Positions 914 to 23,903 of a stretch of 64,000 bases of DNA are shown piece by piece (the stretch's first letter is position 1; each line of letters starts with the position of its first letter). The stretch spans positions 62,001 to 126,000 of the forward strand of contig VYBN01000028.1 of the NCBI GenBank assembly GCA_009844425.1, read 5' to 3'. The position numbers and the translations under genes are program-made. This DNA comes from Gammaproteobacteria bacterium (GTDB lineage Bacteria > Pseudomonadota > Gammaproteobacteria > Steroidobacterales > Foliamicaceae). The notes beneath the pieces are model-generated. The model saw only the letters and a list, made by a program, of their open reading frames with translations, did no database searches and was not told where the DNA came from.

Positions 914-939
914 TGAAAGTAGGAAGCCACTTCGGGGCC

Positions 940-1040
940 GCCTCTTTGTGTGTATTCCTCTCGCGGGAGGCGCCATCCATGGCTCGATTCTCGCTGTCCT
1001 TGCTCCAACGCTCCCACAAGAGGAATACACACAAAGAGGC
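940..1040. repeat. Long hairpin repeat, copy 1 (diverged)
   Basis: A 30-nt left arm (940-969) pairs with a 30-nt right arm (1011-1040) with two mismatches, around a 41-nt apex. The inner end, GGGAG...CTCCC, and the apex words CCATCCATGG and TTGCTCC link it to the copies at 1081, 14803, 16487 and 23792. Its outer arm (GCCTCTTTGTGTG...) is unlike any of theirs. It lies in the gap between the TonB receptor start and the dctM stop, 40 bp from the next copy. Confidence 0.75.
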
Positions 1041-1080
1041 TACAGTCGGCGAAGATCCTGATTAGGGAGGCACTGCTTAA

Positions 1081-1188
1081 GCCGTCTCTATGCCCCCTTC
1101 TTCCGGGAATTTGTGAGCCATGGATGGCGGAACAAAGCTACAGGGATGTATTCATGCGTTTCCCGGAAGAAGGGGGCATAGAGACGGC
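1081..1188. repeat. Long hairpin repeat, copy 2
   Basis: Perfect 28-bp inverted arms (1081-1108 and 1161-1188) enclose a 52-nt apex carrying GAGCCATGGATGGCGGA and TACAGGGATGTATTCATGC. It lies 16 bp beyond the dctM stop, so it would form at the 3' end of the fic-dctPQM transcript. There is no T-run, so terminator function is uncertain. Its apex orientation matches copy 4 (16487) and is opposite to copies 3 and 5. Confidence 0.85.
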
Positions 1189-1204
1189 GAGATCGAAACT
1201 GAAC

Positions 1205-9105: not shown

Positions 9106-9205
9106 TCCATTATCGCCGGTGTGCAAGAGGGGGAATCGGCTCTACGGCGATTACAGCGGCCTTTGCGTCGAAGAGCCATAGGGACTCTGACGGAAGGGAA
9201 AGCTG

Positions 9206-9555
9206 TGGAGGCGGCGGGAATCGAACCCGCGTCCGCAAGCGCTACTGCCCAAGGCGCTCTACATGCTTAGCCGCGTCCGAAAAGACGGTAATTCCCCGAC
9301 GGGCAGGAATGAACTACCGCTGTGATCGACTAACTCTTAGCCAGCAGGCGCCGATCCGGTCTGCGGGCGATCCTGTGCAAGCGACGCTCCGGCCTGGCCA
9401 CAGGAAATCCTGGCAGGAACGCTAGCGGTCAAGCCGCTAGAGCGTAGTTGTCGTCGTTGGCAACTATAGGGTTTGCAGGCGGATTTACGAGGAACCCTGC
9501 GCCTCGGCATGCACACCAAGGGTCTCACAGCCCACGTCGAAGCCGTGTCGCCCCC
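9206..9555 (-). ncRNA. ssrA: tmRNA (transfer-messenger RNA)
   Basis: This is the trans-translation RNA that rescues stalled ribosomes. The 5' end reads GGGGGCGACACGGCTTCGAC (from 9555). The 3' end, complement of 9206 onwards, forms an acceptor and T-arm with GGTTCGATTCCCGCC and ends in CCA, which is encoded. The tag frame lies at 9461-9429 and encodes ANDDNYALAA followed by a stop, the tag type seen in pseudomonads and related gammaproteobacteria. Length is about 350 nt. The 3' half borders the mobile-gene debris at 6.6-9.1 kb, and ssrA 3' ends are common integration sites. Confidence 0.97.
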
Positions 9556-14802: not shown

Positions 14803-14909
14803 GCAATCTCATTGCTCCCTTCTTCCGGGAGACGCATGAATCCATCCATGGAGCTTGCTCCGGCATCCCTGCCTCCAATACTCCCTGAAGAAGGGAGCAA
14901 TGAGATTGC
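14803..14909. repeat. Long hairpin repeat, copy 3
   Basis: A 29-nt arm (14803-14831) pairs with 14881-14909 with one mismatch, around a 49-nt apex containing ACGCATGAATCCATCCATGG and GCTTGCTCCGGCATCCCTG. It lies between two convergent gene ends, where a bidirectional terminator would be useful. The inner stem CTTCTTCCGGGAG equals copies 2 and 4, while the outer arm GCAATCTCATTG is unique. Confidence 0.87.
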
Positions 14910-16465: not shown

Positions 16466-16486
16466 AAACGCCAGCGCACCCGCCAC

Positions 16487-16595
16487 AGCCTTCTCGTCGC
16501 CCCCTTCTTCCGGGAGTATTGGAGCCAGGGATGGCGGAGCAAGCTACAGGGATGTATTCATGCGTCTCCCGGAAGAAGGGGGCGACGAGAAGGCT
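16487..16595. repeat. Long hairpin repeat, copy 4 (best conserved)
   Basis: Perfect 30-bp arms (16487-16516 and 16566-16595) flank a 49-nt apex with GAGCCAGGGATGGCGGAG and TACAGGGATGTATTCATGC. It sits exactly between two convergent gene ends (16465 and 16609). The inner stem CTTCTTCCGGGAG is shared with copies 2 and 3. The outer arm AGCCTTCTCGTCG is found only here. Confidence 0.9.
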
Positions 16596-16608
16596 GAATC
16601 GAAGCGAC

Positions 16609-23791: not shown

Positions 23792-23903
23792 CGCTGGCTC
23801 CGTTACAGGGTCCTTCCGGGAGACGCATGAATCCATCCATGGAGCTTGGTTCCGCCATCCCTGGCTCACAAACTCCCGTAAGGACCCTGTAACGGAGCCA
23901 GCG
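23792..23903. repeat. Long hairpin repeat, copy 5
   Basis: 31-nt arms (23792-23822 and 23873-23903) pair with one mismatch around a 50-nt apex with ACGCATGAATCCATCCATGG and TTCCGCCATCCCTGGCTC. It starts 20 bp beyond the recR stop. The inner stem differs from copies 2-4 (GGTCCTTCCGGGAG) but still pairs. The outer arm CGCTGGCTCCGTTACAG is unique. Confidence 0.87.

Follow-up and report, generated by a model that had tools for sequence, protein, structure and literature searches.

Two arms that change together in a dispersed, mobile palindrome carrying candidate CsrA-binding hairpins

The DNA analyzed in this study, hereafter the window, is a 64-kb stretch of contig VYBN01000028.1 from a Gammaproteobacteria bacterium (assembly GCA_009844425.1). 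Five long hairpins lie in it, and the fourth of them, copy 4, is the element under study. All five had been reported in the initial annotation and were confirmed, copy 4 being delimited as in Table 1; they fold strongly, with predicted energies from -62.5 to -79.6 kcal/mol, and the pattern is far above chance. The placement of copies 3 and 4 between convergent genes was likewise confirmed on the basis of open reading frames (ORFs). The element is a dispersed, mobile palindrome of about 105-112 bp, or up to about 157 bp with the flank that is also missing at empty sites. The apex holds two small hairpins, named A and B; UACAGGGAUGUA is found in exact form in copies 2 and 4, and UCCAUGGAUGGA in copies 3 and 5. 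An apex common to all five hairpins had been claimed, and the apex family is indeed real genome-wide; however, copy 1 possesses another apex type, with nine copies in the genome. Together, copies 1 and 2 make up a block of two hairpins (window 926-1197), which recurs elsewhere in this and sister genomes, e.g. at G000:C6:48559-48814, G000:C25:95091-95352 and G000:C28:7439-7693.

Table 1. Hairpin copies, the small apex hairpins of copy 4 and the tmRNA gene, in window coordinates.
Feature	Position	Strand	Description
Copy 1	940-1040	- (apex sense strand)	Different apex type, GCC-ATGGAT-GGC hairpin; sub-threshold RF01731 match here
Copy 2	1081-1188	+	Perfect stem of 29 bp; both small hairpins, A and B, in the apex (B = UACAGGGAUGUA)
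tmRNA gene	9203-9555	-	Sole Rfam gathering-level hit within the window
Copy 3	14803-14909	-	29-bp stem, mismatched at pair 6 alone; flanked by convergent genes
Copy 4 (studied element)	16486-16596	+	Perfect 31-bp stem, apex of 49 nt; flanked by convergent genes
Hairpin A of copy 4	16524-16535	+	GCC-AGGGAT-GGC; candidate CsrA site
Hairpin B of copy 4	16545-16556	+	TAC-AGGGAT-GTA; fits the CsrA SELEX consensus RUACARGGAUGU; absent from the apex minimum-energy fold
Copy 5	23792-23903	-	31-bp stem, one mismatch; G006 retains just the left edge

A total of 96 apex copies were found in the 3.03-Mb genome of the window (G000; other G numbers denote further genomes, and L numbers catalogued element loci) by searching the whole genome with an apex-only pattern allowing up to three mismatches, and the reversed pattern used as control gave none. 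The presence of the apex in both orientations, already noted in the window, extends to the whole genome (53 forward, 43 reverse). A stem of at least 24 bp was found in 94 of the 96 copies, 93 of which have 27-32 bp and one 37 bp; the two copies without a full stem are a half copy in L025 and one with a 16-bp stem in L237. No mismatch is present in 47 of the 94 stems, one in 33, two in nine, three in three and four in two. Pairing is kept in at least 94% of copies at every stem position except pair 6 (79%). Pair 6 is mismatched in 20 of the 94 copies, mostly through a change in the left arm, as if the mismatch were tolerated or kept.

The sequence of the arms is highly diverse. Variability is highest in the middle and outer parts (entropy up to 1.8 bits per pair) and lowest in the five pairs adjacent to the apex. 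Ten copies with identical apex have arms of 63% identity on average, with a minimum of 43%, and among 126,341 within-genome comparisons of stem pairs a difference was seen on both sides in 43.1% and on a single side in 3.3%. The earlier statement that the outer arms are unrelated between copies was nevertheless too strong for copies 2, 3 and 4, since copies 2 and 4 have left arms that agree at all but 5 of 29 positions; sharing of the same arms, which had been named as an outcome fatal to a local origin of the arms, was found in part among the genome copies. Compared with the terminal repeats of miniature inverted-repeat transposable elements, the flank consensus is common to many copies and the arms are common only in part.

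Orthologous copies reveal that the two arms change together. The comparison was made on 169 copies from nine genomes (94 from G000, 43 from G006 and 32 fetched from the rest, for which the catalogues are incomplete), yielding 39 orthologous pairs in the same orientation, 31 of them with alignable arms (at least 70% identity). Each stem pair was scored as D (both sides changed, still paired), S (one side changed) or X (both changed, unpaired). The 31 orthologous pairs, in which some sites enter repeatedly, comprise 911 stem pairs with D=67, S=22 and X=3, against 6.7 D and 142.6 S expected from independence. With one pair per site, 913 stem pairs from 31 of the 35 sites gave D=72, S=27 and X=3; wholly different arms were found at 4 of the 35 sites. 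Pseudo-pairs taken from the flanks as control showed 10 two-sided and 249 one-sided changes out of 2784. The D:S ratio was 46:21 and 32:17 when the arm-identity cut was raised to 0.80 and 0.85. The 67 doubles consist of 37 transitions and 30 transversions, and because transversions cannot pass via G-U, the changes did not arise through G-U intermediates alone. Adjacent doubles occur about twice as often as expected (15 vs 7.8). Divergence in the same in-place pairs was 3.0% for the apex (34/1138), 6.5% for the arms (87/1346) and 14.3% for the adjacent 12-nt flanks (72/504).

The two-sided changes display a clear polarity along the stem. Pairs 1-8 from the apex contain D=1 and S=14, and pairs from 9 outward D=71 and S=13 (Fisher p=6.8e-9). 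The 94 copies also carry their mismatches more densely near the apex, with 34/752 in the inner pairs, 20 of them at pair 6, and 34/2028 in the outer ones. Moreover, the apex has opposite orientation in 16 orthologous pairs. At four sites (L018/L248/L291; L029/L251; L051 and L250 vs L292; L234/L252) the arms around the inverted apex are at least 88% alike, and therefore the apex turned over in place. Arm homogenization together with spacer inversion is described as the mark of template switching in passages of PMC8794818, PMC7202029 and PMC8604942, and both an excess of two-sided changes and in-place spacer inversion, the latter at four sites, were found here.

By such a mechanism, replication would stall at the hairpin, and the nascent strand may fold back, prime on tip-proximal bases and use one arm as the template for the other. 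A new mutation on either side would be erased or carried over to the partner arm, leaving the stem paired and its sequence drifting, and template switching across the apex would invert it. The polarity is what fold-back priming by tip-proximal bases, if it takes place, predicts. The two-sided excess, the transversions, the polarity from tip to outer stem and the in-place inversions fit template switching better than selection. The initial annotation had suggested, as one possibility, that selection keeps the pairing while the sequence drifts; the paired drift was borne out (72 D vs 27 S), and its cause is better sought in template switching.

Selection on an RNA stem would hold down stem-breaking mutations and compensate them later, the stem serving as a 3' barrier, a processing site or a terminator. 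Such a role would agree with the genomic placement of the 94 copies, which was derived from an ORF heuristic and not from annotation, with the two flanks handled separately: 32 copies are convergent, 54 tandem and 8 divergent, so that convergent gaps are preferred over divergent ones. The slower change of the apex relative to the flanks is also expected under selection, as are G-T and T-G mismatches, which constitute 14 of the 34 outer mismatches in the 94 copies, though this number is not clearly above that of A-C (14 vs 8). However, two-sided changes are at near-neutral frequency and few one-sided intermediates are seen where the flanks are about 94% identical, 30 of the 67 doubles are transversions that G-U cannot mediate, and the in-place inversion of the apex is left unexplained. 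A terminator function is further opposed by the absence of a T-tract in 94 of 94 copies. We regard selection on the RNA stem as unlikely, yet as the alternative to be taken most seriously. An intrinsic terminator of the ordinary type was rejected, as no T-tract (at least six T in 10 nt) follows the stem on either strand in any of the 94 copies.

Both arms would also change together if elements or arms were overwritten by other family members. This kind of turnover or conversion is suggested by the quite different arms at 4 of the 35 orthologous sites, by apex subtypes that switch as units (L007 vs L056) and by new arm states that are in some cases present in other copies. With a context of five bases on each side, however, 44 of the 67 doubles have neither state at another site among the fetched copies, 19 have one and 4 have both, and because of these 44 doubles conversion from other copies is not the whole story; with a three-base context the numbers are 23, 22 and 22. 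Several doubles are found with the apex unchanged (L005/L031, L186/L246, L222/L265, L008/L035). Turnover is a doubtful explanation.

The apex has the features of a candidate double CsrA site. The tip would present, on a long and near-perfect stem, two small A(N)GGA-loop hairpins in tandem, a form to which CsrA/RsmA binds. The A(N)GGA loop of hairpin A is closed by three Watson-Crick pairs in 86 of the 94 copies, with GCC/GGC, GGC/GCC and GAC/GTC stems, and the remaining eight mostly have a nested hairpin within the loop. Such a second small hairpin, removing the GGA of hairpin A, was observed in L029, L192, L196, L204, L205, L211 and L229; the orthologues of L204 and L205 (L264 and L040) are without it. 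Hairpin B has three Watson-Crick pairs in 92 of the 96 copies, via three pair states, and an ANGGA loop in 94 of 96, a conservation that the search pattern itself favors in part. A wider set was drawn from 147 hairpin B matches and limited to the 126 whose outer stem reaches 15 bp or more, including some from the genus of the window. It showed a GGA-containing hairpin A loop in 108, on 75 different stems; the strict A(N)GGA form in the called loop was counted in 55, since the stem finder often pairs the outer A of the loop with T. The consensus for CsrA obtained by systematic evolution of ligands by exponential enrichment (SELEX) is RUACARGGAUGU, with AC/GU pairing below six-base loops and an ANGGAN hexaloop, as given in a section of PMC7652899. 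The two GGA motifs are spaced by 21-23 nt, which falls in the range of 10-63 nt that a CsrA dimer bridges according to the same section (PMC7652899). Changes in the A..GGA core of in-place pairs number 3 against 6.2 expected, which is suggestive only. No description of such repeats as CsrA sites was found in the literature library searched.

The likeness to CsrA sites might be coincidental if the apex were a DNA signal for a mobilizing enzyme. Mobility of the element and the lack of a sense-strand bias are both in line with this idea, but in different genera two separate hairpins retain their A(N)GGA loops while the stems vary, and the GGA spacing suits a CsrA dimer, which makes coincidence improbable.

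The element is mobile, as sister species are without it, or have a different one, at the sites of the window. Five of six sister genomes have no element at the sites of copies 1 and 2, and G001 has one different element there. The hairpin is absent from 6 of 8 genomes at the copy 3 site and the element from 4 of 6 at the copy 4 site, with different elements in G006 and G001 in both cases. At the copy 5 site, five genomes are without the element, an edge remnant is present in G006, and G004 is covered on one side only. Empty sites hold neither arm: in 25 site-by-genome checks (20 for copies 1-4 and 5 for copy 5) the outer arm's top match was never above the best of 40 shuffled arms. The block missing at copies 3 and 4 includes both arms together with some 25 nt of flank to each side. 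As regards a target site duplication, the short length and the divergence of the orthologous gaps blur the ends of the element. At its end, the copy 5 site of G006 retains the initial bases of the left arm, and this edge is interpreted as a deletion remnant because five other genomes are without the stretch and the copy 5 arm family recurs with its flank elsewhere. The initial annotation had also proposed that insertion or repair duplicated the local flank in inverted orientation, to be recognized by empty sites carrying a single arm; apart from the G006 edge nothing of this kind was seen, and with 25 arm-free checks, a missing block of arms plus flank, the recurrence of copy 5 arms and flank at other loci and a stem length fixed near 27-32 bp, the proposal is rejected for the window's sites and is very improbable.

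The locus L030 was considered as a case of arms taken from local sequence and was rejected, as the apparent match is best read as the remnant of an older element; compared with L250, L051 and L292, the G000 flank at this site retains an apparent part of an older arm beside the newer element. A REP/RAYT system was also rejected, no Y1 transposase gene being present in G000, the only genome searched.

Matches with E<=0.001 were obtained from 8 of 8 genomes of the same genus and from 0 of 10 other genomes of the order, and the copy number varies, with 96 in G000 and 44 in G006. A shorter core was present in 18 of 274 genomes of the class, including the window's own, and no match was tabulated for the reversed control. 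The exact 22-base core was found in 88 stretches of named genomes, most of which have the same architecture. Its hosts include sponge-associated and other gammaproteobacterial metagenome-assembled genomes (MAGs), Cellvibrionaceae, Microbulbifer, Marinimicrobium, Pseudomaricurvus, Teredinibacter, Stutzerimonas and methanotrophs; identical arms are also present in MAG records, which suggests that the window itself comes from a sponge-associated gammaproteobacterium. Some stems in the sponge MAG PNGco_C_bin10 (L068, L097, L111, L149) reach 43-46 bp with zero mismatches. A plasmid collection searched with copy 2 gave no match.

We consider, with a probability of roughly 0.6, that the element is a mobile palindrome with tandem candidate CsrA hairpins on a long stem, the arms of which are kept paired by template switching. 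When transcribed, mostly from neighboring genes, the GGA strand would give RNA expected to bind CsrA dimers, and the bound RNAs may act as many small decoys or as local sites in 3' regions. A bolder version can be offered tentatively, namely that a mobile double CsrA site is present at about 100 places and that its stem is kept paired mainly by template switching in replication and not by selection, compensatory changes being produced by mutation alone.

Several observations weigh against this interpretation. Concerning mobility, PF01797 (Y1 transposase, RAYT) has no matches in G000, the only genome searched, and no transposase was identified. Concerning the arms, at an identity of at least 0.90 the counts fall to D=12 and S=10, although stricter cuts must lower the ratio. 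At least one state of 23 of the 67 doubles (five-base context) or 44 of the 67 (three-base context) is found elsewhere, and conversion may explain some of them. The inner pairs are also the most conserved, and the polarity could partly reflect constraint. In G100, G168 and G265 (L299-L312, L319-L338) the same apex is accompanied by arms that are more alike between copies and have more mismatches. Concerning the CsrA sites, beyond the part of hairpin B conservation owed to the search pattern, hairpin A forms in all four apexes for which minimum-energy folds were computed and hairpin B in none of them, with energies just 0.9-1.2 standard deviations below those of shuffles. A single csrA match was found in this genome and likewise in all nine genomes of the genus; its presence says little because 8 of the 10 element-free relatives in the order also have csrA. 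In tandem settings the GGA strand is sense in 28 copies and antisense in 26, and given this lack of strand bias a selected role in each host transcript is unsupported; the copies may act jointly as a decoy, or the RNA may serve the element itself.

Covariation between paired stem positions serves as the standard evidence for selected RNA structure. If the arms are kept paired in the way proposed, this family shows that DNA replication can produce it, and offers tens of dated natural sites at which replication-made covariation can be measured. Furthermore, a mobile element with two likely CsrA sites at about 100 places would add a large and lineage-variable load of binding sites on a global regulator.

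Among known families, the window hairpins and 20 loci gave no Rfam match at gathering level. When copy 4 was searched permissively against Rfam, most of the sub-threshold matches were to models of microRNA precursors, which were attributed to chance similarity of a long stem. The closest plan is that of TwoAYGGAY (RF01731), which is described in parts of PMC2864571 and PMC4333381 as two such hairpins with an external stem poorly conserved in sequence, and the external stem of the window family is poorly conserved as well. A search of G000 with RF01731 gave 32 matches at E<=10, all under the gathering score (best 33.5 vs 43 bits), 17 of which lie at catalogued elements (13 of the 96 and four of the copy 1 type); copy 4 had no match at E<=10. 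The loops here are mostly AGGGAT or ATGGAT, many with G instead of the pyrimidine of AYGGAY at the second position. High copy number and mobility, both features of the window family, are not mentioned in those parts of PMC2864571 and PMC4333381, and CsrA binding by TwoAYGGAY is itself a prediction, unvalidated in the relevant part of PMC4333381. The family is described as working like TwoAYGGAY and not as a member of it, because the gathering threshold was missed; overall, the element is seen as a variant, mobile and present in many copies, of an RNA already known as a candidate for CsrA binding.

The small RNAs CsrB, RsmX, RsmY and RsmZ likewise have repeated GGA hairpins with a spacing that suits dimer bridging. 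The element differs from them in having two sites per copy, many copies, a long stem and no T-tract terminator. Ysr224 (RF02770) is annotated on the opposite strand, and the complement of its consensus carries the same apex. It matches L321 (E 4.2e-5, 32.9 bits) and L317 (E 5.7e-4, 28.9 bits), compared with a gathering score of 70 bits, and the model of this annotated small RNA resembles the complementary strand of such elements. YPAL/RU-2 and ERIC are also intergenic mobile palindromes of 100-200 bp with filled and empty sites, as outlined in parts of PMC2229807 and PMC2267715. They are set apart by description and not by sequence, CsrA sites and concerted arms being unmentioned in those parts of PMC2229807 and PMC2267715. 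Finally, the evolution of hairpins (quasipalindromes) by template switching, as treated in passages of PMC8794818, PMC7202029 and PMC8604942, shares arm homogenization, multibase compensatory change and inversion of the spacer or loop with the family in this study; what differs is that these changes are found here in a bacterial family of repeats, over tens of orthologous sites.
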